64,000 bases of DNA, taken from the NCBI RefSeq assembly GCF_000223375.1, contig NC_017384.1:310001-374000 (forward strand). The letters run 5' to 3'. Below the pieces are notes generated by a model. That model was not told the origin of the DNA and searched no databases. It saw only the letters and a program-made list of their open reading frames with translations. The translations under genes were made by a program, and so were the position numbers. Source of the stretch: Ketogulonicigenium vulgare WSH-001 (GTDB lineage Bacteria > Pseudomonadota > Alphaproteobacteria > Rhodobacterales > Rhodobacteraceae). Shown piece after piece: positions 42,898-58,077 of this stretch; position 1 is the stretch's first letter; every line of letters begins with the position of its first letter.

Positions 42898-43761
42898 TCA
42901 CAATATGCGGGCGGCGACAGCGTCCAGCTTTGCCAGCAGGGCAGGGTCGCGTTTATCAGACGCAGTCATGATCGCATGATCCAGCGCGCGATCACAGCCG
43001 CAGGGGCAGGGGTCAAAGGGTTGCAGATGCGCAGGCAGCGCGCCGACCAGCGCCTTGCCCGCAGTGGAATTTGCGGTCAGCGTCGCGATGACGGCGGCGA
43101 CATCGACAGAGTCGTGACCGGGATGCCAACTATCATAATCGGTGACCATTGCCACTGTGGCGTAACAGATCTCGGCCTCGCGCGCGAGTTTCGCCTCGGG
43201 CATGGCGGTCATGCCGATCACATCGCAGCCCCAGCCGCGATACATCAGGCTTTCGGCGCGGGTCGAGAATTGCGGCCCCTCCATCGCAAGATAGGTGCCG
43301 CCGCGGTGCATGTTCAGTCCGAATGCCGCGCCCGCCGCAGCGACCGCATCGCCAAGACGCGTGCAGGTCGGATGGCCAAAGCCGACATGGGCGACGCAGC
43401 CGGTCCCAAAGAACGACTTGTCGCGCGCGAAAGTGCGGTCGATGAACTGGTCGACAATGACGAAATCGCCCGGGGCCAGTTCCTCGCGGAACGACCCAAC
43501 GGCCGAGATCGAGACGATATCCGTGACGCCAAGCCGCTTTAACGCGTCGATATTGGCGCGGTAAGGCACGGCGCTCGGGCTATGGACATGGCCGCGCCCG
43601 TGGCGGGGCAGGAAGGCAATCGGCAATCCCCCCAGCACTCCGGTCAGGACCGCATCCGATGGCGTGCCCCACGGACTGTCCACCTGATGCCAAGCCGCGC
43701 CCTCTAGTCCCGCGATGTCATAAAGACCCGAGCCGCCGATAATCCCCAACTTGCGCTGCAT
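42898..43761 (-). CDS. mtnP: S-methyl-5'-thioadenosine phosphorylase
   Basis: A 287-residue phosphorylase cleaving MTA to adenine and methylthioribose-1-phosphate. Hallmarks are [36 protein letters not shown] and [15 protein letters not shown]. The ATG at 43761 (GAGG nearby) is preferred; 43770 is possible. It is divergent from the LuxR-type regulator gene and is followed by apt. Confidence 0.94.
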
Positions 43762-43874
43762 CTGCCTCATTCCGCTTGTACAGGCGCAGAATGTCGTCCG
43801 TGCCTCCACGATGCAAGGGTGCGCGGCCCGGCCAGAGATGATAAAGCTGTGGGGTCAAGCCTTGGGATGCAAAA

Positions 43875-46181
43875 GTGACCATTTCCCCCCTGCCGCGCCG
43901 CGCCCTGATCGCGCGTATCCTTGCCGATCCGGCCGAGATTATTGTGATCGAGGCACCCGCGGGCATGGGGAAAAGCTGGCTGTTGCGGCAGTTGCAGGAC
44001 ACGGGACGCGCGCTGCATGATGTCGGGGCAGGGCCATCGCCCGTGATCCCAGACGACCCCGGGCCGCGCGGCATGATCATCGCGAAACGCCCCGAAGTGC
44101 AGCTACGCGGTCTTGCACGGGCGGTGATCTATGGCCGCACCAGCTTTTATCGCGCCGAGGATCTGGTTTTTACGCGCGATGATATCGCTGCCGCTGGCCT
44201 TTCGCCTGCGGTCTTTACCCGCAGCGGCGGCTGGCCCTGCCTGCTGCCTTGGGCCAGTGCAGAGGCACCCGATCCCGATGATCTGACCGCATTCTTGCAT
44301 GACGAGATGCTGGTGAGCCTTTCGCCCGCGCAGATCGCCAGCCTGCATGCGATGCTGGTTGATCCGCGCTTGCGTCCCGATCCGGCTGTGCTGCGCGGCA
44401 CGCCTTTGGGGACGGCGGTGCTGGCCCCGGCGGTGGCCGCCATTCGTCCCGCGCTGCAAGCTGCCGCCGCGCAGCGCCTGCGGGAATTGTCGCAAAACAT
44501 GGCCCATGCCCGTGCCATCGCCCGCACCCAAGTGGCGCTGGGCCTTGTGCCGCAGGCGATCGAAACGCTACAGCGCGTCGGCGCGACGACCACCGCGCTG
44601 CAGGTCTATGAGGCGGCGGGCGGGTTCTATACGATCCACCGCTTTGGCCCCGAGGCGTGCCGCCGTTTGCTGGCGGGCTTTCCGCAGCAGATGCAGAACG
44701 AGACCGAGGCGCTGGTGCTGGGCCGCGCGATGGTGGCCGTAAAGCAGGGCGATGTGCGGCTGGCGCAGTTGATCATGCGCGATTTTTATGGCGACGCGAC
44801 GCGCGACCCTGTCGCCTTCATCCGTGACGCCCGCCATTTCAGCTTTCAGGCGCGCCTGTTCCGGCTGCTGCTGCGCATTTGGGAGGATGCCGATCTGACC
44901 GAAGCCGATGTCGCGCCGGTCTATGACCTGCTGGCCGAAGTGCCGGTCGACGACGATCTGCGGCGCGGCTCGATTTATAATGTCGTGCTGGACATCTATG
45001 TGCGCCTGCGCCGCTTTCCCGAGGCTGAACAAGTCGCCCGCCAAGCTGCCATCCACTATGCCCGCGCGGGCGTGCCGGTGCTGTCGTTCTATATCGCGCT
45101 GCATAGCGTGGTGATCCGGTTGTTCATGGGCGAGCCTTTGGTCGCGCAAACCCATGTACAAGCGGCATGGGGGTGGCTGCATCAGGTCGATGACAATGCA
45201 TCCGACGCGCGGCTGCTGCGTCTGGCCGAGGCTTGCGTCGCCTTTGAGATGGGACAGGTGGATGGGCTGTTGCGGTTCATTGCCGAGGACCATGATGCCT
45301 TTGTGAATGGTGAGACCTGGGGCTCGATTGTCGAGCTGTTGTTGACCTATGGCCCCCAGGCGCTGGCGCTGACACAATCGCATCTGGCGGCGCGGGCGCT
45401 GCTCGACCGTTGGCGCGTGACGGGCGAGCGGTCGCATCAATTCAGTGCGCTGATTGATAACCGCGAGATTTTGCTGATGCAAAACGCCGGCCGCTGGATC
45501 GAGGCCGCGCAAAAGGCGCAAAGCCTGTCCGGTCCGATCACCCGCGCCGGGATCGAGGGGGACGCCGCCCTTGCCGAGGTGCAGGGCCGCGGCGAAGTCG
45601 CCATCGCCCTGCTGTGGCTGCGGCATTTCGTGCATCAAACACCGCGCCTGTCCGGTTTGGGCGACAAGCTGGATGCGATGCGCGGCAATACCCATCTGAC
45701 ATGGCGCCAGCATATCGCCGTCAGCCTGTGGCAGGCGCAATACGAGGCGCGCCAGAACAATATGGCCGAGGCGCAAACTCTGCTGCTGCATGCGCTGGGC
45801 GCGATGCAATCGCGCGGCGCAGTGGCGATTTTGGATGAAGAGGCGGCGACGCTTGCCGATCTTTTGCGCCGCAAACGTCTGCTGGACGCGGTTGAACATG
45901 ATCCCCGCCTGCGCCGTTTCCTGCGGCAATCCAGCCTGCTGTCGCAGCATGTGCAGGGCGGCGTTGATTCAGATCGCGGCGCAGCGCTGGGCCTGACCCG
46001 GCAAGAGATGCGCGCCATGTATGCCCTGATCGAAGGGGCGACGAATAAGGAAATCGCGAAACTGCTGGGTCTGTCCGAGGCGACGGTGAAATTTCACCTG
46101 AAAAATCTGTATCGTAAACTTGGCTGCGCGACCCGGGCCGAGGTGCGCATCGCCGCTGCCGCGTTAGATTTGACACGTTAA
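43875..46181 (+). CDS. Large LuxR-family (MalT-like) transcriptional regulator
   Basis: A 768-residue regulator. A P-loop lies at 27-34 (APAGMGKS) near the N-terminus. A long helical, TPR-like middle region follows. The C-terminal LuxR helix-turn-helix spans about 707-765, with LTRQEMRAMYALIEGATNKE and ATVKFHLKNLYRKLG. This layout matches MalT-type ATP-dependent activators that respond to small ligands. It starts with GTG at 43875. It sits directly before the transporter-enzyme operon starting at 46364 in the same direction and is the obvious candidate regulator. The ligand is unknown. Confidence 0.88.
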   Translation: MTISPLPRRALIARILADPAEIIVIEAPAGMGKSWLLRQLQDTGRALHDVGAGPSPVIPDDPGPRGMIIAKRPEVQLRGLARAVIYGRTSFYRAEDLVFTRDDIAAAGLSPAVFTRSGGWPCLLPWASAEAPDPDDLTAFLHDEMLVSLSPAQIASLHAMLVDPRLRPDPAVLRGTPLGTAVLAPAVAAIRPALQAAAAQRLRELSQNMAHARAIARTQVALGLVPQAIETLQRVGATTTALQVYEAAGGFYTIHRFGPEACRRLLAGFPQQMQNETEALVLGRAMVAVKQGDVRLAQLIMRDFYGDATRDPVAFIRDARHFSFQARLFRLLLRIWEDADLTEADVAPVYDLLAEVPVDDDLRRGSIYNVVLDIYVRLRRFPEAEQVARQAAIHYARAGVPVLSFYIALHSVVIRLFMGEPLVAQTHVQAAWGWLHQVDDNASDARLLRLAEACVAFEMGQVDGLLRFIAEDHDAFVNGETWGSIVELLLTYGPQALALTQSHLAARALLDRWRVTGERSHQFSALIDNREILLMQNAGRWIEAAQKAQSLSGPITRAGIEGDAALAEVQGRGEVAIALLWLRHFVHQTPRLSGLGDKLDAMRGNTHLTWRQHIAVSLWQAQYEARQNNMAEAQTLLLHALGAMQSRGAVAILDEEAATLADLLRRKRLLDAVEHDPRLRRFLRQSSLLSQHVQGGVDSDRGAALGLTRQEMRAMYALIEGATNKEIAKLLGLSEATVKFHLKNLYRKLGCATRAEVRIAAAALDLTR

Positions 46182-46184
46182 ACG

Positions 46185-46227
46185 GTGATCTTGCGCAACT
46201 TTTGCTAAAATTATAGGCGCCGATCAC
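46185..46227 (+). promoter_or_regulatory. Candidate operator/promoter upstream of the second peptide-type transporter
   Basis: GTGATC (46185-46190) and GATCAC (46222-46227) are inverted half-sites flanking an AT-rich segment (46201-46216) that holds TAAAAT and TATAGG, possible -10 elements, with TTGCGC at 46191-46196 as a possible -35. No experimental or conservation support. Confidence 0.3.
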
Positions 46228-46363
46228 GTCTATACCTACCCATATGATGGAAAAACCTATCCTTGCGCGCGGTTGCGACAGGGCAGTCGCTGGATCAGAC
46301 TTTCCAGACGCACGGGGGCCAATAACCCGGGACTGACAGAACCACATCACAGGGATTAGGGCT

Positions 46364-47926
46364 ATGAAGGCAAAGTTTCTGACCGCCACCGCAGCGACCG
46401 CGCTGCTGGCAGGTGCGATCACCACTGCGACGGGCGCTGTCGCACAGAATATCGTGACGATGAACACGGTGCAGATCTTTGGCTCGATCGACCCGGCCAA
46501 AATCTCGGATTACACCGATTATATGGCGGCGGTGAACCTCTATGATGGGCTGATCACCGTCGCGCCCGACGGCAGCCTGATCCCGCGCCTTGCCGAAAGC
46601 TGGACGGTTTCGGATGATGCGACCGAGGTGGTCTTTACCCTGCGCGCCGATGCGACATTCGCCGATGGCTCGCCCGTTGAGGCCAAGGATGTCGTCTATA
46701 CGTTCGAGCGTCTGCTGCGCCTGAACCAAGGCCCCTCGAACCTGTTTGCGGGTATTGTCGCCCCCGGCGCGGTCGAGGCGATTGACGACAAGACGGTGAA
46801 ATTCACCCTGTCGCAGACCTTCTCGCCCTTTATGGCAACCATGCCCGCGCTGATGATCGTCAACGCCGATCTGGTCGAGGCGAACGCGGGTGATGACGAT
46901 GCCCAAAGCTATCTGGCGCAAAATGTCGCCGGCGCCGGTGCCTATGATCTGGTGACATGGGATCGCGGCGCGCGCATGGTGATCCGCCGCAACACCGATT
47001 ACTACGGCGGCTTCCCCGAAAACGCGATTGACGAAGTGCGCTGGGTCGTCACGAACGACGAGGCGACGGTGCGCGCGATGGCCGCCTCGGGCGAGCTGAC
47101 CATGACCTCGCAATATCAATCGACCGAGACCTATGACGCGCTGGCGGCGATGGGCCGCTTCCGCGTCGAAAGCTTTGCCACGCCGACCGCGTTCTACATG
47201 AAGCTGAACAACCAGACCGCGCCGACCGATGACGTGCATATCCGCCGCGCCATTGCCTATGCGACCGATTTCGACACGATCCGCGAAGTGCTGTTCCCCG
47301 GCGAGCCGATGAATACCGTACTGCCCGGCAGCTTCTCGGCCTTCCTGAACACGGATGTCGTCGCGCCGACCTATGATCTGGAAAAAGCTGCCGCCGAAAT
47401 CGCGCTGTCGGCCTATGCCGGCCAGCAGATCCCGATCACCCTGTCGTACGTCGCAGGCACCCAGTTCGAGGAAGATATCTCGCTGCTGATGCAGGCGAAC
47501 CTTGAAAGCCTCGGCTTTGTTGTGACTCAGCAGCCCGAGCCATGGAACCGTGTGACGGAACTGGCCGCCACCGTCGAGGGCACCCCGAACCTGAACCAGA
47601 TTTTCTACGGTCCGACCTATCCCTCGCCGGACAGCATGTTCTTTCCGCAATACCATTCGAACGGGGCAGGGACGTGGATTTCGATGGATTGGGCGGCCTC
47701 GCCCGAGGTTGATGCCCTGATCGATGCCGCGCGCGCCACCGGCGATACCGAGGCACAGGCCGCGCTTTACCGCGACGTGCAGCAAATTCTGGCGGATCAG
47801 CAAGTGACCATCCCGCTGCTGTCGCAACTGCAGATGCATGCCATCGACCAATGTCTGCAAGGCATGGAAATGGTCCCGATGATGAGCTTTGAGTTCGATT
47901 TCCGCAAGTTCCACTGGGACTGCTAA
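46364..47926 (+). CDS. Periplasmic substrate-binding protein of a dipeptide-type ABC transporter (SBP family 5)
   Basis: A 520-residue exported protein. The signal peptide (about 1-28, ending AVAQ) is followed by a SBP_bac_5 fold with FGSIDPAKISDYTDYMAAVN, LYDGLITVAPDGSLIPRLAE and a long second lobe. It is the ligand-capturing component of the importer encoded next and is the first gene after the LuxR-type regulator. The downstream enzymes suggest a hydantoin- or thiohydantoin-like or N-acyl ligand rather than ordinary dipeptides, which is inference. Confidence 0.92.
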   Translation: MKAKFLTATAATALLAGAITTATGAVAQNIVTMNTVQIFGSIDPAKISDYTDYMAAVNLYDGLITVAPDGSLIPRLAESWTVSDDATEVVFTLRADATFADGSPVEAKDVVYTFERLLRLNQGPSNLFAGIVAPGAVEAIDDKTVKFTLSQTFSPFMATMPALMIVNADLVEANAGDDDAQSYLAQNVAGAGAYDLVTWDRGARMVIRRNTDYYGGFPENAIDEVRWVVTNDEATVRAMAASGELTMTSQYQSTETYDALAAMGRFRVESFATPTAFYMKLNNQTAPTDDVHIRRAIAYATDFDTIREVLFPGEPMNTVLPGSFSAFLNTDVVAPTYDLEKAAAEIALSAYAGQQIPITLSYVAGTQFEEDISLLMQANLESLGFVVTQQPEPWNRVTELAATVEGTPNLNQIFYGPTYPSPDSMFFPQYHSNGAGTWISMDWAASPEVDALIDAARATGDTEAQAALYRDVQQILADQQVTIPLLSQLQMHAIDQCLQGMEMVPMMSFEFDFRKFHWDC

Positions 47927-47933
47927 CACCTTC

Positions 47934-47956
47934 GGCGCGGCCCCACTGGCCGCGCC
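47934..47956 (+). other. Intercistronic hairpin between binding protein and permease genes
   Basis: GGCGCGGCC (47934-47942), loop CCACT, GGCCGCGCC (47948-47956), then ACCTTTCG. As at 21850, it sits just behind a binding-protein gene and may raise its mRNA level over that of the permeases. Confidence 0.6.
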
Positions 47957-47984
47957 ACCTTTCGCGTAAACTCAAGGGGCGACA

Positions 47985-49010
47985 ATGGAATTTCTGGCTT
48001 TCCTTGTCCGGCGGCTGCTGTGGTCGCTGCTGGTGCTGTTTGGCCTGTCGGTGATCATTTTCACCATCGCGCGCGTCGTTCCGGGTGATCCGGCCCGTAT
48101 GGCGCTGGGCCCGACCGCAAGTGCCGATCAGGTGCTGGCACTACAAGAACGGCTGGGTCTGAACCTGCCGCTTTATGAACAATATGTCCGATTTATCAGC
48201 GGGCTTTTTCAGGGCGATCTGGGCCTGTCGCTGCTGACGCAGCGCGCCGTCTCGCTGGATATCGCCGCCGCCTTTCCTGCGACGCTGGAATTGGTGCTGG
48301 TGACGATCCTTTTGGCCTTTGCCTTTGGCGTGCCGCTAGGTGTGGTGGCCGCGCATTGGAAAGACCGCTGGCCCGATAACCTTGTGCGGGCGATAGCGAT
48401 TGTCTCGGCGGTGATGCCGTCCTTTTTGATCGCGCTGCTGCTGCAACTTTTGGCGGGCTATGTGCTGAAGGGCTTTCCCACCACCGGCCGCTTGCCGATG
48501 GGCCTTGAATTCAACGCCGATATCACCGGACTTCTGCTGATCGACGGCCTGCTGCGCGGGCGGCTGGATGTGGTGGCCGAGGCGGCGCGCCATGTGATTT
48601 TCCCGGCAACCGCACTGGCGCTGGCCACGATGGGGCAGATCGCGCGGATTACCCGCGCCTCGATGATCGACGTATCGCGTCAGGATTATATGGAGGCCTC
48701 GCGCGCCTTTGGGGTGCCCAGTTTCCTGCGTATGTTCAAATACCAGCTGCGCCCCAGTTTCGTGCCGCCGCTGACGATCCTTGGCCTTGAGTTTGCCTCG
48801 CTGATCGGCGGCGCTTTCGTGGTCGAGTTGATCTTTGCCTGGCCGGGGATGGCCGCTTACGGGCTGCGCGCCATCACGCAAAAGGATCTGAACGCGATCA
48901 TGGCCGTGGTCATGGTGTCGGGCCTGTTCTTTGTCATCGTCAACCTGCTGATCGACATTCTTGTCGGCATCGTCGATCCGCGCATTCGTATCAGGGGCAA
49001 ACGCGCATGA
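47985..49010 (+). CDS. Dipeptide-type ABC transporter permease (DppB-like)
   Basis: A 341-residue permease. The family start MEFLAFLVRRLLWSLLVLFG leads into IARVVPGDPARMALG. The coupling loop is DYMEASRAFGVPSFLRMFKY and the end is IVDPRIRIRG. AAGGGG precedes the ATG. The next permease start overlaps the stop by 4 bp. Confidence 0.93.
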   Translation: MEFLAFLVRRLLWSLLVLFGLSVIIFTIARVVPGDPARMALGPTASADQVLALQERLGLNLPLYEQYVRFISGLFQGDLGLSLLTQRAVSLDIAAAFPATLELVLVTILLAFAFGVPLGVVAAHWKDRWPDNLVRAIAIVSAVMPSFLIALLLQLLAGYVLKGFPTTGRLPMGLEFNADITGLLLIDGLLRGRLDVVAEAARHVIFPATALALATMGQIARITRASMIDVSRQDYMEASRAFGVPSFLRMFKYQLRPSFVPPLTILGLEFASLIGGAFVVELIFAWPGMAAYGLRAITQKDLNAIMAVVMVSGLFFVIVNLLIDILVGIVDPRIRIRGKRA

Positions 49011-49864
49011 GCCAGAATATGAGCCACGCCGCGCAGAACTGGTATCGTTTCTCGCGCAATCCAACGGCGGTGATCGGCGCGCTGATCGTGATCATCTGCC
49101 TGCTTGCCGCGATTTTCGCGCCCTATATCACGCCCTATCCCGATCATGTCGGCGCGGTCGTCGATTTCCGCAATCGTCACCAGCCCCCAAGCTGGGAGCA
49201 TTGGTTCGGCACGGATCAAGCGGGCCGCGACCAGTTTACCCGTGTGATTTTCGGGATGCGCGTCTCGCTGGCTTTGGCCTTTGTCGTGCTGGTGATCGCG
49301 GTGCCGCTGGGCACGCTTTTGGGGATGCTGGCCGGATACTTTGGCGGCTGGACCGAGATTGTCATCATGCGCCTGACCGATATTGCCCTTGCGCTGCCGC
49401 CCTTGGTGATGGCGCTGGCGGTTGCGGCGGTGCTAGAACCTTCGCTGACCAATGCCATGCTGGCGATTTCGGCCCTATGGTGGACATGGCACACGCGGCT
49501 GGTGTTCAGCCTGACCCGCCAGATCCGCGCGCAGGAATATATCGAGGCGGCAGAGACGCTGGGCGCATCGAAATTCCACATCATCTTCCGCGAGATCCTG
49601 CCCAATTGCATCTCGGCTGTGGCGGTGAAAACCTCGCTTGATGCGGGCTTTGTGATCCTTGTCGGGGCCTCGCTGTCGTTCATCGGCCTTGGCATCCGCC
49701 CGCCGACGCCCGATCTGGGTACCATGGTCGCGGCAGGTGCCGCATTCCTGCCGGGCTATTGGTGGGAGGCGCTGCTGCCGGGCGCTGCGATTCTATTCGT
49801 CGCGCTGGGCTTTAACCTGCTGGGCGACGGCCTGCGCGATCTGTTCGATGTGGAGAACGTGTAA
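49007..49864 (+). CDS. Dipeptide-type ABC transporter permease (DppC-like)
   Basis: A 285-residue permease with the DppC layout. A cytoplasmic N-terminus (WYRFSRNPTAVIGALIV) is followed by FGTDQAGRDQFTRVIFGMRV and the coupling loop EYIEAAETLGASKFHIIFRE. Its stop overlaps the ATPase start by one base (TAATG). Confidence 0.93.
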   Translation: MSQNMSHAAQNWYRFSRNPTAVIGALIVIICLLAAIFAPYITPYPDHVGAVVDFRNRHQPPSWEHWFGTDQAGRDQFTRVIFGMRVSLALAFVVLVIAVPLGTLLGMLAGYFGGWTEIVIMRLTDIALALPPLVMALAVAAVLEPSLTNAMLAISALWWTWHTRLVFSLTRQIRAQEYIEAAETLGASKFHIIFREILPNCISAVAVKTSLDAGFVILVGASLSFIGLGIRPPTPDLGTMVAAGAAFLPGYWWEALLPGAAILFVALGFNLLGDGLRDLFDVENV

Positions 49865-50697
49865 TGCAGCCCGCGCTTCATGTTGAAAACCTGCATGTCA
49901 GCTTCAAAACCTATGGCCGCACGACCGAGGTGCTGAAAGGCGTCAATCTGACGGTGCCAAAAGGGGCGCAGGTCTCGCTGGTGGGCGAGAGCGGCTCGGG
50001 CAAGTCGGTCACGATGAAAACCATCATGGACCTGCTGCCGGGCAATGCGACGATTACCGACGGCGCCATGATGTTCGACGGGCAGAACCTGCTGACCATG
50101 CCGCGCCGCGACCGTCTGCGGCTGCGCGGCACCGCTATGAGCATGGTGTTCCAAGACCCGATGTCCTCGCTGAACCCGGTCTTTACGATCAAGGATCAGT
50201 TGATGACGATCCTGAAATACGCCGACCGCCGCCTTGGCCGCGACCGCAGCAAAGCGGGCCGTTATGCCCGCGTGATCGAAGTGCTGACCCAAGTGCGTAT
50301 GCGCGAGCCCGAACGTGTCGCAGCATCCTATCCCGTCATGCTGTCGGGCGGGATGCGTCAGCGCATTTTGATCGCAATGGCGCTGCTGTCCGAGCCGCGC
50401 CTGCTGATCGCGGACGAGCCGGGCACCGCGCTGGATGTCACGACGCAGGCGCAGATCCTGAAGCTGCTGAAAGATCTGGTCAGCGAACATCACCTGTCGC
50501 TGTTGATGATCACCCATAACCTCGGCGTTGTGCGGGAAACCTCGGAATATGTCTATGTGATGAACAAGGGCGAGATCGTGGAACACGGGGCCACCAGTGC
50601 GTTGTTCGCCAATCCGCAGCAGCAATATACCCGCGATCTGATCGCGGCGGTGCCAAAACTGACAGGACGCGATAAGATGCCCGAGGTGCGCCCATGA
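49864..50697 (+). CDS. Dipeptide-type ABC transporter ATP-binding protein (DppD-like)
   Basis: A 277-residue ABC ATPase. Walker A is at 41-48 (GESGSGKS), the signature is LSGGMRQR and Walker B is LLIADEPGTALD; DEPTTALD is the more usual form, so the Gly is a minor variant. The C-terminal peptide-transporter extension includes PQQQYTRDLIAAVP. In this locus the two ATPases are separate genes, unlike the fused one at 487-2193. Confidence 0.93.
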   Translation: MQPALHVENLHVSFKTYGRTTEVLKGVNLTVPKGAQVSLVGESGSGKSVTMKTIMDLLPGNATITDGAMMFDGQNLLTMPRRDRLRLRGTAMSMVFQDPMSSLNPVFTIKDQLMTILKYADRRLGRDRSKAGRYARVIEVLTQVRMREPERVAASYPVMLSGGMRQRILIAMALLSEPRLLIADEPGTALDVTTQAQILKLLKDLVSEHHLSLLMITHNLGVVRETSEYVYVMNKGEIVEHGATSALFANPQQQYTRDLIAAVPKLTGRDKMPEVRP

Positions 50698-51575
50698 CCC
50701 CCGCATTGGAACTGCGCAATGTGACCAAGACCTTTACCCTAAAGGGTGGTTTTGGCCGCGTGAAATCGGTGACGACGGCGGTGAATAATGTCTCGCTGTC
50801 GATCATGCCTGGCGAAAGCTTTGGTCTGGCGGGGGAAAGCGGCTCGGGCAAATCGACCATCGCGCGGATGATCATGGGGCTGGCGCTGCCCGATAGCGGC
50901 GACATTCTGGTCGATGGTGTCAGTATCCTCTCGAAAGAGGCGCCGCGCGATCTGAAGTCGCGGGTGCAGATGGTGTTCCAAAGCTCGTCTTCCTCGCTGA
51001 ACCCGCGCCGCACCGTGGGGCAGTCGATTGCCGTGCCGTTGGTGGCGCATGGCTATGGCGGCCATCGCGCCGCGCGGATCGCGGAACTGCTGGAAATGGT
51101 GCAACTGCCCGCCGCTTTCGCGAACCGCTATCCGCATGAACTGTCGGGCGGCCAGAAACAGCGCGTTGCCATCGCCCGCGCGTTGGCTGTGGGTGCAAAA
51201 CTGCTGGTGCTGGACGAGCCGACCTCGGCGCTCGATGTCTCGGTGCAGGCAAAGGTGATCGAACTGCTCGAGGGCCTGCAGCGCGAGATGGGCCTGACTT
51301 ATCTGTTCATCAGCCATGACCTGTCGCTGATGCGCAATTTTACCAGCCGTGTTGGCGTCCTGTATCGCGGCGATGTGGTTGAAACCGGCGCGACGCCTGC
51401 GGTCTTTACCCATCCCCAGCATGATTACACGCGGCTTTTGCTGGCCTCGGTTCCGGTTGTTTCCGCCGAGGAAGAAGCCCTGCGTCCCATAATCCCCTTA
51501 ATCAATGGCGAACTGCCCACCGCAGAAGAATTGCTTGCCCTGCGGCAAGCCGGTGGCGTTCAGGAAAGGAAGTGA
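50694..51575 (+). CDS. Dipeptide-type ABC transporter ATP-binding protein (DppF-like)
   Basis: A 293-residue ABC ATPase. Walker A is at 47-54, the signature is LSGGQKQR and Walker B is LLVLDEPTSALDVS. The C-terminal extension includes PQHDYTRLLLASVP. It partners the DppD-like ATPase, whose stop it overlaps by 4 bp. The stop lies one base before the hydantoinase-family start. Confidence 0.93.
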   Translation: MTPALELRNVTKTFTLKGGFGRVKSVTTAVNNVSLSIMPGESFGLAGESGSGKSTIARMIMGLALPDSGDILVDGVSILSKEAPRDLKSRVQMVFQSSSSSLNPRRTVGQSIAVPLVAHGYGGHRAARIAELLEMVQLPAAFANRYPHELSGGQKQRVAIARALAVGAKLLVLDEPTSALDVSVQAKVIELLEGLQREMGLTYLFISHDLSLMRNFTSRVGVLYRGDVVETGATPAVFTHPQHDYTRLLLASVPVVSAEEEALRPIIPLINGELPTAEELLALRQAGGVQERK

Positions 51576-51576
51576 C

Positions 51577-53124
51577 ATGATCCGTATCGGTATTGACGTG
51601 GGTGGCACCAACACCGACGCTGTCATCATGGACGGCGCCGATGTTCTGGCCGCCGTCAAATCGCACACCACATCGGATGTGATGTCGGGTGTCGTCTCGT
51701 CGCTGAACCTTGTGCTGGCCGAGGCTGGCAAATCGGCAAGCGATGTCGATGTGGTTATGATCGGCACCACGCATTTCACCAACGCCGTCGTGCAGCGTCG
51801 CGATCTGGCGCAGACCGCCGCCGTGCGCCTGTGCCTGCCCGCAACCCAAAGCCTGCCGCCCATGGTCGACTGGCCCGAGGATCTGCGCGATGTCATCGGC
51901 AACACCTGGTATCTGGCGCATGGCGGTCATGAATTCGACGGCCGCGTGATCTCGCCCCTGAATGAGGACGAGCTGGTCGGCATCGCCGCCGATATCAAAG
52001 CCAAGGGGATCAACACGATCGCAATCACCTCGGTCTTCTCGCCCGTCTCGGCCGAGTTCGAGGCAAAAGCCGCCGAGATTTTCGCCCGTGAACTGCCCGG
52101 CGCGCATATCACTGTCTCGAGCGAGATCGGCCGGATCGGTCTTTTAGAGCGTGAAAACGCCGCCATCATGAACGCCTGCCTGCGCGATCTGTCGCATGAG
52201 GTGATACAGGCGTTTCGCGATGCGTTGGCGGGGATCGGCTTTACGGGCCGTTTCTTTTTGACGCAAAACGACGGCACTTTGATGGAGGCCGAATTCGCCG
52301 AGAAATTCCCGGTGCTGACCTTTGCCTCGGGTCCGACCAATTCGATGCGCGGCGCGGCGTTCCTGTCGGGCGTCAAGGACGCCATTGTGGTCGATATCGG
52401 CGGCACCACCGCCGACGTTGGCAGCTTGCAAAAGGGCTTTCCGCGCCAAGCGACCGTTGCGGTCGAGGTGGGCGGCGTGCGCACCAATTTCCGTATGCCG
52501 GATGTGTTCTCGATTGGCCTCGGCGGTGGCAGCCTTGTGGTTGATGCGGCGGGTGGCGTGAAAGTCGGCCCGACCTCGGTCGGTTATCGCATCGCGACCG
52601 AGGCGCTGGTCTTTGGCGGCAGCACGCTGACGACGACCGATCTGGTGGTCGCCGATGGCGGCGCGGTGATCGGTGATCCCGCCAAGGTCGCGCATCTGGA
52701 CAAGGATCTGGTGGCCCGCGGCCGCGCGCGTATCGCCGAAATGCTGGACGATTGTGTCGAGCGCGCCCGCGTCTCTGCCGATCCGCTGCCGGTGATTGTT
52801 GTGGGCGGCGGCTCGGTCATCGTGGGCGGGCCGATTGCCGGTCTGCAACTGATCAAGCCGAACCATTTCGCCTGCGCGAACGCCGTGGGCGCGGCCATTG
52901 CGCAGGTCTCGGGCGAGGTGGATCGCGTCTACGCCATGGCCGAAATCTCGCGCGATAAGGCGCTGGAGGATGCCAAGACGCAGGCGGTGAACGCCGCCGT
53001 TGCGGCAGGGGCCAAACGCGAAACCGTTGAAATCGTTGACGTCGAGGACGTGCCCCTGGCCTATCTGCCCGGCAATGCCACGCGCGTCCGCGTCAAAGCT
53101 GTGGGTGAGCTGCATGTCGGCTGA
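51577..53124 (+). CDS. Hydantoinase/oxoprolinase family protein (HyuA-like, short form)
   Basis: A 515-residue protein with the actin-like (ASKHA) fold of the hydantoinase A / 5-oxoprolinase family. The N-terminal phosphate loop is IGIDVGGTNTDAVIMD (residues about 4-18). The second loop, DIGGTTADVG, is near residue 275 and a C-terminal glycine-rich VGGGSVIVGGP is near 408. It is shorter than classical HyuA, about 680 residues, and no HyuB partner follows. Instead two DUF917 genes do. The family opens cyclic amides such as hydantoins or 5-oxoproline with ATP. AAAGGAAG precedes the ATG at 51577. Confidence 0.88.
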   Translation: MIRIGIDVGGTNTDAVIMDGADVLAAVKSHTTSDVMSGVVSSLNLVLAEAGKSASDVDVVMIGTTHFTNAVVQRRDLAQTAAVRLCLPATQSLPPMVDWPEDLRDVIGNTWYLAHGGHEFDGRVISPLNEDELVGIAADIKAKGINTIAITSVFSPVSAEFEAKAAEIFARELPGAHITVSSEIGRIGLLERENAAIMNACLRDLSHEVIQAFRDALAGIGFTGRFFLTQNDGTLMEAEFAEKFPVLTFASGPTNSMRGAAFLSGVKDAIVVDIGGTTADVGSLQKGFPRQATVAVEVGGVRTNFRMPDVFSIGLGGGSLVVDAAGGVKVGPTSVGYRIATEALVFGGSTLTTTDLVVADGGAVIGDPAKVAHLDKDLVARGRARIAEMLDDCVERARVSADPLPVIVVGGGSVIVGGPIAGLQLIKPNHFACANAVGAAIAQVSGEVDRVYAMAEISRDKALEDAKTQAVNAAVAAGAKRETVEIVDVEDVPLAYLPGNATRVRVKAVGELHVG

Positions 53125-54217
53125 AGGCTATATCCTGCGTGAGGAGGATCTGCTGCCCCTGTCCATCGGGGCGGCGATCCTGGGCACGGGCGGCGGCGGC
53201 AATCCCTATATCGGGATGCTGCGTGCGCGCGAATTGATCCGGGCGGGCGCGGTTGTGCGCGTGCTGCCGCTGCATGCGCTGCCGGACGACGCCTATATCG
53301 GCGAAGTTGGCGGCATCGGCGCGCCGGTCGTCGGCATTGAAAAGATCGAGCAGGGCGAGGAATGCCTGCGCGCGATGCGCGCTGTCGAGGAAGCCGCAGG
53401 CGTGCAGATGTATGCGGTGATCTCGGCCGAGATCGGCGGCTCGAACGCGCTCGAGCCAATCATCACCGCCGCCCAATCGGGCCTGCCGGTGGTGGACGGC
53501 GACGGCATGGGCCGCGCCTTTCCCGAAGTGCAGATGTGCACATGGTTCATCTATGGCGCCAAGGCCTCTCCGGCTGCGATTGCGGATGAAAAGGGCAATG
53601 TCGTCGTCTTTCGCCATGTGCAGGATATGTTCTGGCTGGAACGCTTTGCCCGCGATACCGCTGTGGCAATGGGCGCGGCGGCGGGCCTTGCGATTGCGCC
53701 GATGCGCGGCGATTTCGTGAAAAAGGTCGCCGTTCCGGGCACCGTCACACAGGCGCTAGAGCTGGGCCGCGTGGTGCTGGATGCGCGCGCAAAACGCCAT
53801 AATGTCGTCGACCGCATCTGCGGCGCGACCGGCGCCACGCTGTTCTTTACCGGCAAGGTTGTCGATGTCGAACGGGGCATGTCGGGCGGCTTTAACCGTG
53901 GCACCGCCGTGATCGAGGGCGCGGGCGAATGGGCCGGTTCCACCGCGCGCATCGCCATCCAGAACGAGAACCTGATCCTGTGGATCGACGACAAACCCGT
54001 GTTGATGGTCCCCGACCTGATTATGAACGTCGACCCGGAAACGGGCGAGCCGATCACCACCGAAGTGCTGCGTTTCGGCCAGCGCGTCGCAGTACTGGGC
54101 CTGCCTGCGCATGATCTGATGAAAACGCCCGAGGCGATGGCCATCGTCGGCCCCAAGGCCTTTGGCTATCCCGATATCGCATTTAAGCCGCTGGCGCTGG
54201 GCCAGATTACCGCGTGA
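53114..54217 (+). CDS. DUF917 family protein, first copy
   Basis: A 367-residue protein. The family signature is a glycine-rich motif near the N-terminus (24-32, GTGGGGNPY). A central DGDGMGRAFPEVQM follows, then a beta-rich C-terminal half. I recall this family (PF06032) being tied to thiohydantoin desulfurisation; treat that as a hint. Its ATG overlaps the end of the hydantoinase-family gene by 11 bp, implying coupled translation and a shared pathway or complex. No signal peptide or membrane segment is seen. Confidence 0.85.
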   Translation: MSAEGYILREEDLLPLSIGAAILGTGGGGNPYIGMLRARELIRAGAVVRVLPLHALPDDAYIGEVGGIGAPVVGIEKIEQGEECLRAMRAVEEAAGVQMYAVISAEIGGSNALEPIITAAQSGLPVVDGDGMGRAFPEVQMCTWFIYGAKASPAAIADEKGNVVVFRHVQDMFWLERFARDTAVAMGAAAGLAIAPMRGDFVKKVAVPGTVTQALELGRVVLDARAKRHNVVDRICGATGATLFFTGKVVDVERGMSGGFNRGTAVIEGAGEWAGSTARIAIQNENLILWIDDKPVLMVPDLIMNVDPETGEPITTEVLRFGQRVAVLGLPAHDLMKTPEAMAIVGPKAFGYPDIAFKPLALGQITA

Positions 54218-54228
54218 AAGGACAAGTC

Positions 54229-55314
54229 ATGAAAATCTTTCGCGAAGTGGATGTCGCCGAGATCGAGGATATGGCCGCAGGCGGTGCCGTTCTGGGCACC
54301 GGCGGGGGCGGCGATCCCTATATCGGCAAACTGATGGCGCAACAGGCGATCCGCAAGTTCGGCAAGGTGAAACTTGTCCGTACCGAGGATCTGCCCGATG
54401 ACGCGCTGGTCGTGCCGGTCTGCATGATGGGCGCGCCCACCGTGATGACCGAAAAACTGCCGCAGGGCGACGAGCTGGTGAATGCCTTTGTCGCGCTGGA
54501 AAAGCTGCTGGGCCGCAAGATCGACGCAGTGTTGTGCGGCGAGGCGGGGGGCGTGAACTCGATGACGCCCTTTGTTGTCGCGGCGGCCACCGGCCTGCCA
54601 CTGGTCGATGGCGACGGTATGGGCCGCGCGTTTCCGGAACTTCAGATGGAAACATTCGCCCTTGCCGGTGTTAGCGCGACGCCGATGGTTCTGTGTGATG
54701 ACAAGGGCAATACAGTGACGTTCGAGACCGTCTCGAACCGCTGGACGGAACGTCTGGCGCGGGCGGCGACGGTGGAAATGGGCGGCTCGGCGCTGTTGGC
54801 GTTTTATTCGATGTCGGGTGCCAAGGCCAAGGAATGCGTTGTGCGCGGCACGCTGACCCTTTGCGAATCCATCGGCCGCACCCTGCGCGAGGCCAAGGCC
54901 AACCACGGCGAGCCGGTCAAGGCGCTGGCAAGCCTTTTGCAGGCGCATAATATGTTCGAAGGCCGCATCGTCGATATCGAACGGCGCACCGTCGGCGGTT
55001 TTGCCCGCGGCAAGGTGATCCTGAACGGCACCGACGATTGGAAGGGGCATGAGATGTCCATCGACTTCCAGAACGAGTTTTTGCTGGCGATGCGCGACGG
55101 CGAAGTTGTCGTGACTACGCCCGATCTGATCAGTCTGGTCGATGCGGAAACCGGCCTTGCGGTGACGACGGATTCGCTGCGCTATGGTCAGCGCCTTGTG
55201 TGCCTTGCCTATCCCTGCAACCCGATGTGGCGCACGCCACTGGGGATCGAGGTCGCAGGCCCGCGTTACTTTAAATATGATGTGGATTATCAGCCGCTGG
55301 CTGCGGCCGAGTAA
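54229..55314 (+). CDS. DUF917 family protein, second copy
   Basis: A 361-residue paralogue of the preceding gene. It keeps GTGGGGDPY (23-31) and VDGDGMGRAFPELQM, but diverges elsewhere. AAAGGA ahead of ATG 54229 favours this start over GTG 54214, which overlaps the previous stop. Two adjacent copies could form a heteromer or act on two related substrates. It closes the operon, with a terminator 8 bp after the stop. Confidence 0.85.
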   Translation: MKIFREVDVAEIEDMAAGGAVLGTGGGGDPYIGKLMAQQAIRKFGKVKLVRTEDLPDDALVVPVCMMGAPTVMTEKLPQGDELVNAFVALEKLLGRKIDAVLCGEAGGVNSMTPFVVAAATGLPLVDGDGMGRAFPELQMETFALAGVSATPMVLCDDKGNTVTFETVSNRWTERLARAATVEMGGSALLAFYSMSGAKAKECVVRGTLTLCESIGRTLREAKANHGEPVKALASLLQAHNMFEGRIVDIERRTVGGFARGKVILNGTDDWKGHEMSIDFQNEFLLAMRDGEVVVTTPDLISLVDAETGLAVTTDSLRYGQRLVCLAYPCNPMWRTPLGIEVAGPRYFKYDVDYQPLAAAE

Positions 55315-55321
55315 CCAAGGC

Positions 55322-55354
55322 TGGCGCTGCCTGCATATGGGCAGCGCCATTTTT
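55322..55354 (+). terminator. Intrinsic terminator of the DUF917 operon
   Basis: TGGCGCTGCC (55322-55331) pairs with GGCAGCGCCA (55340-55349), followed by TTTTTC. It also lies just past the stop of the convergent cold-shock gene. Confidence 0.85.
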
Positions 55355-55560
55355 CATTCTGGCTTGAGATTGCCCGCCATCTGGCGCCCGTCGCGCCCTT
55401 CGATCAGGTCAAAAGTCACCTTTTGATCATCGCTAAGGCCGGTCAGCCCGGCCTGTTCGACGGCCGAGATATGCACAAACACATCCTTGCCGCCGCCTTC
55501 TGGCGCGATGAAACCATAGCCTTTGGTGGTGTTGAACCATTTTACGGTGCCGTTCGGCAT
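55354..55560 (-). CDS. Cold-shock domain protein (CspA family)
   Basis: A 68-residue single cold-shock domain that binds single-stranded RNA and DNA. RNP1 is KGYGFI (13-18) and RNP2 is VFVHI (27-31). The ATG at 55560 is chosen because GGGAG (about 55568-55572) is correctly spaced; ATG 55566 would be too close. The 212-bp divergent gap up to 55773 should hold its promoter and possibly a temperature-sensing leader. Confidence 0.93.
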   Translation of the reverse strand: MPNGTVKWFNTTKGYGFIAPEGGGKDVFVHISAVEQAGLTGLSDDQKVTFDLIEGRDGRQMAGNLKPE

Positions 55561-56130: not shown

Positions 56131-58077
56131 TTACGCCAGATCGGGCGGCAGCGCCGAGGCGCGGGTTTCGGCCAAGATCGCATCCAGCGACATGGTCGCG
56201 GTCTGGTTCTCGCCCAGACGGCGGACGGTCACGGTGCGCTCCTCGACCTCGCGGGCGCCGATCGCCAGGATCAGCGGCACTTTGCCCAGGCTATGCTCGC
56301 GCACTTTGTAGTTGATCTTCTCGTTGCGGGTGTCGGCCTCGGCGCGGACGCCGGCGGCGGAAAGTGCCGCCACAACCTCGTGGACGTAATCATCCGCATC
56401 CGAGACGATCGAGGCGACGACCACTTGGCGCGGGGCCAGCCAGAAGGGCAGCTTGCCGGCAAAGTTCTCGATCAAGATGCCCACGAACCGCTCGAACGAT
56501 CCAAGGCAGGCGCGGTGCAGCATGATCGGGCGATGTTTCGCGCCGTCTTGGCCGATGTAATTGGCGTCCAAACGCTCGGGCAGGTTGGGGTCGACCTGCA
56601 GTGTGCCGCATTGCCAGTCGCGGCCGATGGCGTCGGTCAGCACGAATTCCAGCTTTGGCCCGTAAAACGCGCCTTCGCCTTCTTGCAGCTCGTAATCATA
56701 ACCGGCCTTGCGGCAGGCATTGCCCAACGACTGCTCGGCGTGATCCCAGCTTTCTTCGGTGCCGATGCGCTTTTCAGGGCGGGTCGACAGCTTCACGCGC
56801 CAGCTTTCAAAGCCGAGATCGGCATAGACGCTGGCCAGAAATTCGATGAATTTCTTGGTTTCCGATTCAATCTGATCTTCGGTGCAGAAGATATGCCCGT
56901 CGTCCTGCGTAAAGCCGCGCACGCGCATAATGCCGTGCAGCGCGCCCGACGGCTCATACCGCGCACAGGACCCAAACTCGGCCATGCGCAGCGGCAATTC
57001 GCGATAGGATTTCAGCCCGTGGTTAAAGATCTGCACATGGCAGGGGCAGTTCATCGGCTTAAGCGCGTTGACCACCTTTTCCTTGGCGCCTTCCTCGTCC
57101 ACCTCGACGATGAACATATTGTCGCGATAGTTCTCCCAGTGGCCGGATTTCTCCCACAGCACGCGGTTTACCACTTGGGGGGTGTTCACCTCGACATAGC
57201 CGTCCTTGCGTTGGCGGCGGCGCATGTAATCTTGCAGCGCGGTATAGACCGTCCAGCCGTTCGGATGCCAGAACACCTGACCGGGGGCCTCCTCCTGCAT
57301 GTGGAACAGATCCATCTCGCGGCCAAGGCGGCGGTGGTCGCGTTTGGCGGCCTCCTCCAGCATGGTCATATGCGCCTTCAGATCCTCGCGGTTGCGGAAG
57401 GCGACGCCATAGATGCGCTGCAGCATCGGGCGGCTGCTGTCACCCAGCCAATAGGCACCGGCGACATGGGTCAGCTTGAACCCGTCAGCGGGCACTTGGC
57501 CGGTGCTTTGCAGGTGCGGGCCGCGGCACAGATCCTGCCAATCGCCGTGCCAATACATGCGCAAAGGCTCGTCGCCCGGAATGCGGTTCACCAATTCGAT
57601 CTTATAGGGCTCGCCGCGATCCTCGTAATAGGCGAGGGCGCGGGCGCGCTCCCACACTTCGGTGCGGACAGGCTCGCGCGCGTTGATGATCTTTTTCATC
57701 TGCGCCTCGATCGCGCCCAGATCTTCGGGGGTAAAGGGCTCGGCGCGGTCAAAGTCATAGAACCAGCCGTAATCGCGGACGGGGCCGATGGTGACTTTCA
57801 CATCGGGCCAGATCTCTTGCACGGCGCGCGCCATGATATGCGCCAGGTCGTGGCGGATCAGCTCTAGCGCGGGGGCTTCGTCCTTCATCGTGTTCAGCGC
57901 GATGGAGGCATCTGCGGTGATCGGCCATTGCAGATCCCAATGCTGGCCATCCAGCTGTGCGGAAATCGCGGCCTTTGCCAGCGATTTCGAGATCGACTCG
58001 GCGACGGCAGCGGCGGTGATCCCGGCGGGATATTCGCGTTTGTTACCATCAGGGAATGTCAGGGAAATAAGGCTCAT
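56131..58077 (-). CDS. thrS: Threonyl-tRNA synthetase
   Basis: A 648-residue class II synthetase. The N-terminal TGS domain ([20 protein letters not shown]) precedes the editing domain with the [12 protein letters not shown] motif. The catalytic core contains [29 protein letters not shown] and [12 protein letters not shown]. The C-terminal anticodon domain includes WLAPRQVVV. Full length and all motifs present. Confidence 0.97.

Follow-up and report, generated by a model that had tools for sequence, protein, structure and literature searches.

ATP-dependent hydantoinases, 5-oxoprolinases and caprolactamases (HyuA/HyuB and CapA/CapB) share a subunit of the ASKHA ATPase family that carries both phosphate motifs of that fold. 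Thiohydantoin and S-methyl thiohydantoin desulfurases (NF058529 and NF058532) both belong to the two-domain DUF917 family, which has the fold of structure 2o3i, itself a protein of unknown function. In the agropinic-acid opine system of Agrobacterium, a lactam importer with a solute-binding protein (SBP) of family 5 presumably lies beside HyuA-type genes (agaF/agaG). Genes for DUF917, for hydantoin racemase and AroM and for dipeptide transporters also occur around cyclodipeptide oxidases, in a report that describes DUF917 as experimentally uncharacterised and suggests hydantoinase activity (PMC11055893). Here we analyse a nine-gene locus at positions 43875-55314 of a 64,000-nucleotide stretch of the Ketogulonicigenium vulgare WSH-001 genome (NC_017384.1, positions 310,001 to 374,000; G000:C1:310001-374000), referred to as the window. 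The locus encodes a LuxR-family regulator, a dipeptide-type importer, a short HyuA and two DUF917 proteins (DUFa and DUFb). We favour, with somewhat more confidence than doubt, the reading that regulator, importer and an ATP-dependent HyuA–DUF917 ring-opening enzyme form a catabolic cassette complete in itself and scattered in its distribution. The sequences directly show the order of the genes, their families, the pairing and fusion of HyuA with DUF917, the paralogy of the two DUF917 proteins and the conservation of the operator.

A short HyuA and DUF917 recur together

The short HyuA (51577..53124, + strand; 515 amino acids; PF05378, and PF01968 in part) matches the fold of HyuA/HyuB and CapA/CapB over about 500 residues. 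Residues of both ASKHA phosphate motifs are invariant in 34 sequences (D7, V8, G9, G10, T11, T13 and D14 in phosphate 1; D273, G275, G276, T277 and D280 in phosphate 2), and lactim phosphorylation would be the chemistry shared with the classical enzymes. It differs from these in length, as four long HyuAs have 687-692 residues, and in lacking the C-terminal domain Hydant_A_C (PF19278), which is present in this genome's own long HyuA. The adenosine motif GxxPGP is found in the four long HyuAs and is absent from the four short HyuAs and three fusion proteins aligned; in its place the consensus of the 34 short HyuAs reads VGPxSVGYRLxxEALVFGG. Whereas the classical system has a HyuB, none of the nine operon proteins is one (PF02538), and DUF917 stands in that place. 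What is new here is a HyuB-less short HyuA, without adenosine motif and C-terminal domain, that is nearly always beside DUF917.

DUFa (53114..54217, +; 367 amino acids; paralogue clade a) and DUFb (54214..55314, +; 366 amino acids, from a GTG at 54214, with a later ATG at 54229) both carry the S-Me-THD N and C domains (PF06032 and PF20906). HyuA starts at the ATG at 51577, 1 bp past the stop of the preceding ATPase gene, and overlaps DUFa by 11 bp; DUFa and DUFb overlap by 4 bp. The two DUF917 proteins are old paralogues that were inherited together.

DUF917 (PF06032) is sparse, occurring in 8 of 61 genomes of one set and in 11 of 299 Pseudomonadota (10 over the family cut-off), with this genome in both sets. 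Short HyuA, counted by profile A1 at E <= 1e-60, was found in 6 of the 299, all of them among the 11 with DUF917 (hypergeometric P 5e-10), and every one of the short-HyuA loci (8/8) adjoins DUF917. Among 385 Alphaproteobacteria there were 31 profile matches in 27 genomes; one partial match of 208 bits, in a genome without DUF917 (G388), was set aside as another kind of HyuA, and 28 of the remaining 30 are adjacent to DUF917. The exceptions (G480 and G573) have DUF917 elsewhere in the genome. This genome's two HyuA–DUF917 loci are included in both the Pseudomonadota and the Alphaproteobacteria counts. HyuA and DUF917 are retained while the type of transporter changes: it is of Dpp type in the window's clade and of the NCS1 family in L017 and L080, and annotated cytosine permeases stand beside the pair on plasmids of Streptomycetaceae, Parageobacillus, Limosilactobacillus, Enterococcus and Sodalis.

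The two proteins also occur joined. A search with HyuA, DUFa and DUFb as one joined query, under a length rule that excludes single proteins, returned 1061 matches, and of the 120 listed, 116 contain both halves. Named proteins among the listed fusions come from amphioxus, molluscs, corals, echinoderms, Trichoplax, green algae and amoebae. No weight was given to P0001 or to three of the 116 (P0009, P0019 and P0035), the junctions of which look frameshifted or truncated. A quick tree built from 49 HyuA rows has a branch (Shimodaira–Hasegawa-like approximate likelihood ratio test 99) with 16 of the 17 sampled fusions on the same side; because the remaining one, P0010, groups apart from them with unfused bacterial proteins, fusion by this tree arose at least twice. 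An AlphaFold2 model of P0010 from an alignment of 59 fusions had a predicted local distance difference test (pLDDT) of 89.0, under 50 at residues 520-546 between the halves, and a predicted template modelling score (pTM) of 0.89. The halves have about 517 and 360 residues, and at these sizes that pTM suggests a defined mutual orientation. The original prediction, made from the sequence alone, had treated HyuA and DUF917 as separate enzymes; adjacency, fusions and the fusion model make them look instead like parts of one enzyme.

A cassette with its own importer and regulator

All nine genes lie on the + strand where the original prediction had placed them. The importer it described as complete is so: a family 5 SBP (46364..47926, +; PF00496, E 1.4e-70), permeases of DppB/OppB type (47985..49010, +; PF00528, PF19300) and DppC/OppC type (49007..49864, +; PF00528, PF12911), and ATP-binding cassette (ABC) ATPases of DppD/OppD type (49864..50697, +; PF00005) and DppF/OppF type (50694..51575, +; PF00005, PF08352), both with NCBIfam relatives below cut-off, stand in one operon in conserved order. 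The chain of overlapping or abutting genes, thought to end at 54217, is real and reaches from the first permease at 47985 through DUFb to 55314. It is followed, as had been proposed, by a single strong intrinsic terminator (55322..55349, +), a 12-pair stem and TTTTT, which has the longest stem among 11 terminator-like sites in 46100-55450 (7.6 expected, sd 3.4). In a genome of the same genus (G001), a PF06032 search gave no match, and homologues of the flanking genes (42901-43764 and 56134-58077) are 868 bp apart, compared with about 12 kb here; we take the flanking genes to be methylthioadenosine-phosphorylase-like and threonyl-tRNA-synthetase-like. The nine-gene cassette is a presence/absence unit.

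Conservation of gene order was scored with fixed thresholds in the best 80 of 306 loci by HyuA similarity, a sample biased to close kin. The window's nine-gene order is found in 42 of these 80 other loci. In 11, permeases, ATPases, HyuA, DUFa and DUFb are followed by the binding protein, and in four the regulator comes first and the binding protein last. Both DUFa and DUFb follow HyuA in 70 of the 80, with DUFb in two pieces in one more; DUFa stands without DUFb in four (among them L029 and L072, whose contigs stop at that point), DUFb stands without DUFa in another four, and in one the contig ends within HyuA. Among the 67 loci, window included, that have both DUF917 genes and sequence beyond them, the gene 3' of the pair is the binding protein in 13, and the next-largest group counts 3. 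As the binding protein is the only large downstream group, we take HyuA, DUFa and DUFb as the conserved enzymatic core; the terminator, the genome lacking the cassette and the recurring nine-gene order join regulator, importer and enzymes as one unit. The predicted uptake-and-degradation unit is upheld by the order shared with those 42 loci and by a conserved candidate operator, described below. Unlinking of the enzymes from the importer in homologous loci, which would have told against it, is seen in part, as some relatives use other transporters.

The regulator (43875..46181, +; 768 amino acids) has a C-terminal LuxR helix-turn-helix domain (PF00196, 55.8 bits, residues 707-757) and a Walker-A-like motif, APAGMGKS, at residue 27. 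As a pattern match only, [AG]x4GK[ST] occurs in the first 160 residues of 45 of 49 regulators, window included; the narrower Gx4GK[ST] occurs in 1 of 49. It had been called MalT-like, which holds for its architecture only; on the MalT equivalog model it scores 29.3 bits against a cut-off of 537, below membership. Between regulator and importer lies a candidate operator (46234..46262, +), the direct repeat ACCTACCC / ACCTATCC with a period of 21 bp, whose AAACCTA boxes begin at 46234 and 46255. Two tandem ACCTA[GTC][ACT]C boxes are present in 39 of 44 regulator–SBP gaps (window included), in 38 exactly 21 bp apart, and 200 rounds of single-base shuffling of the 44 gaps gave zero tandem pairs. 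A fair test of the pattern is given by loci outside the 44: among 35 further loci scanned, four have the pair (L091, L096, L098 and L103), each with the same regulator in a different gene order and with the pair between regulator and first permease gene. The degenerate tandem pattern matched this genome once, at this locus; the same pattern read backward, as a control, likewise gave one match, on the opposite strand. The boxes, two helical turns apart, are likely to be the regulator's binding site. The predicted inducibility of the cassette is itself an inference, and a very likely one.

Proposed mechanism and alternatives

What we infer is that the regulator binds the operator and induces the genes, that ATP is used for a phosphorylation, that DUF917 docks on HyuA as the half that hydrolyses, and to which class the substrate belongs. 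In the mechanism we propose, the LuxR-family P-loop regulator would bind the tandem AAACCTA operator and switch on the Dpp-type importer and enzyme genes. HyuA, with its ASKHA kinase fold, would use ATP to transfer phosphate to the lactim oxygen on the imported cyclic amide, and DUF917, bound to HyuA as HyuB is in classical hydantoinases, would open the activated ring. DUFa and DUFb might be kept as a pair because they form a heteromer, or because each is a partner for a different ring type or enantiomer. HyuA and DUF917 would then probably constitute one ATP-dependent cyclic-amide hydrolase in which DUF917 replaces HyuB. The wider proposal, that HyuA–DUF917 is an uncharacterised class of cyclic-amide hydrolases, found in bacteria as a two- or three-gene unit whose importer can be exchanged and in animals, algae and amoebae as one fused protein, we put at even odds.

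Several observations weigh against this mechanism. The missing GxxPGP motif makes ATP use by the short HyuA less than certain. Loci with DUFa only (L080 and L081) or DUFb only (L076 and L079) indicate that one can occur without the other, two short HyuAs (L141 and L146) are not adjacent to DUF917, and classical HyuB-like genes lie near short-HyuA loci L004 and L168, so that other ring openers are possible. The fusion model covers P0010, not the window's proteins. The operator pattern was picked from the same 44 sequences in which it was then counted, and L018, with a regulator scoring 323 bits, has no tandem match. Finally, a pyridoxal-phosphate (PLP) enzyme in a Streptomycetaceae locus, discussed below, reaches 572 bits with the model for the L-cysteine desulfhydrase Cds1, just short of the cut-off of 600.

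These points bear differently on three other explanations. HyuA and DUF917 might be separate enzymes that catalyse consecutive steps and are adjacent through operon selection only. Both HyuA/DUF917 gene orders do occur, DUF917 branches without HyuA exist, and a stand-alone DUF917 may hydrolyse hydantoin-like rings according to PMC11055893, for which reason we raised our estimate slightly. Near-constant adjacency across varied transporter contexts, the fusions with their high-pTM model and a short HyuA missing the C-terminal domain that its classical relative has argue the other way, and we consider consecutive steps unlikely. A little less likely still is that HyuA, instead of being the kinase half of a hydrolase, uses ATP to reactivate or chaperone DUF917, as ASKHA proteins do for diol dehydratase and activators do for CoA-type reductases and dehydratases. 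The original prediction linked DUF917 to thiohydantoin desulfurisation, and by that route DUF917 would desulfurise a thiohydantoin brought in by the importer, and HyuA would open the resulting hydantoin. This would suit the S-Me-THD-like family of DUF917 and the Streptomycetaceae locus, in which OsmC and the PLP enzyme (annotated as cysteine synthase family) lie between two DUF917 genes. Family membership fails, however: on the two NCBIfam desulfurase models DUFa scores 104 and 94.5 bits and DUFb 122 and 93.9 bits against cut-offs of 450 and 440, at most about a quarter of the membership score, whereas 5 of 10 other DUF917s, scanned as a positive control, pass NF058529 at 574-604 bits (L024, L117, L118, L119 and L123). 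The window's DUF917s are paired with HyuA, but the fetched loci of the five passing proteins (19 kb for L024, about 3.4 kb each for the others) contain no HyuA match. The passing DUF917 of L024 has a thiourocanate hydratase (1006 bits, cut-off 930) on one side and a histidine-ammonia-lyase relative on the other, the context expected for thiohydantoin; no thiourocanate pathway gene is among the nine window operon proteins. Because of this control we lowered an already small estimate, and regard thiohydantoin catabolism as highly improbable.

If the hydrolase mechanism is right, it would provide a working frame for the DUF917 branch that travels with HyuA and for many fusion proteins labelled 'uncharacterized' or 'hydantoinase' in marine animals, algae and protists, and lactam activation by ATP would gain a second catalytic partner. 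Handles for an assay come with the cassette: the binding protein for ligands, the regulator with its short candidate operator for inducers, and the two- or three-protein enzyme. The predicted opening of a cyclic amide by HyuA is backed by family, fold and gene linkage.

Substrate hints

We leave the ring class as hydantoin, diketopiperazine or lactam. NCS1 permeases, a family that includes the hydantoin carrier Mhp1, an Asp/Glu/hydantoin racemase gene beside DUFb of L084, AroM-type regulators near short-HyuA loci, and a classical HyuA/HyuB pair adjoining this genome's second short-HyuA locus (L004) may all hint at ring substrates. By sequence, the solved protein closest to the binding protein is AgaA (6hlx), at a modest 100.8 bits, 2 bits above the runner-up (98.7); its ligand, agropinic acid, is presumably a lactam, and its system we take to be of HyuA/HyuB type, not DUF917. 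No carbamoylase gene is present in the window operon; this would mildly favour a ring that housekeeping enzymes can use once it is opened, such as a cyclic dipeptide or lactam. Possible downstream steps are hinted at by one locus each: a PepE dipeptidase over cut-off (L175), an amidase (L170) and an asparaginase (L164). In L083 an enolase-family protein scores over the o-succinylbenzoate-synthase cut-off; enzymes of this type can be N-acylamino-acid racemases. The DUF917, racemase, AroM and Dpp-type transporter genes of the cyclodipeptide-oxidase clusters (PMC11055893) are also found near short-HyuA loci, whereas the window's nine operon proteins have no cyclodipeptide oxidase domain, and the term HyuA occurs 0 times in that paper's main text.

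Variant loci

At L175 (2920-5743), HyuA–DUF917 lies with PepE dipeptidase and DUF1177 genes and an AroM-LuxR-like gene, a neighbourhood that may hint at a dipeptide as the ring-opened product. This genome's second short-HyuA and DUF917 pair (L004, 8001-16678; G000:C2:185000-204500) has as neighbours an AroM-LuxR fusion regulator, an M20-like hydrolase, the classical HyuA/HyuB pair and an Opp-type transporter. The Streptomycetaceae plasmid locus (L105, 7577-15847) reads cytosine permease, HyuA, DUF917, OsmC, Cds1-like PLP enzyme and second DUF917, possibly a sulfur-linked version of the module, and L024 (7018-11441; G051:C1:22000-41000) is likely an ergothioneine-type breakdown cluster.

In the DUFb-only loci L076 (11600-12820) and L079 (4486-5697), the DUF917 frame has a lysine-rich N-terminal extension. 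In L110 (13538-14944, Mesorhizobium japonicum pMLa), only a 234 bp hypothetical gene is annotated between HyuA and DUFb, and most of DUFa seems to have been lost. Three long frames (P0002, P0008 and P0014) place HyuA behind about 250-310 other residues, with an ABC-ATPase domain listed for P0002 and P0008; natural fusion and read-through are both possible. An Enterococcus raffinosus megaplasmid (L108, 4934-16317) has two consecutive units of PucR, cytosine permease, DUF917 and HyuA, flanked by proline-reductase and selenium-metabolism genes. An hcpR nitrosative-stress expression table for Clostridioides difficile R20291 gives positive values for each of CDR20291_1615-1617, a permease, a DUF917 protein and a hydantoinase (PMC12915319).

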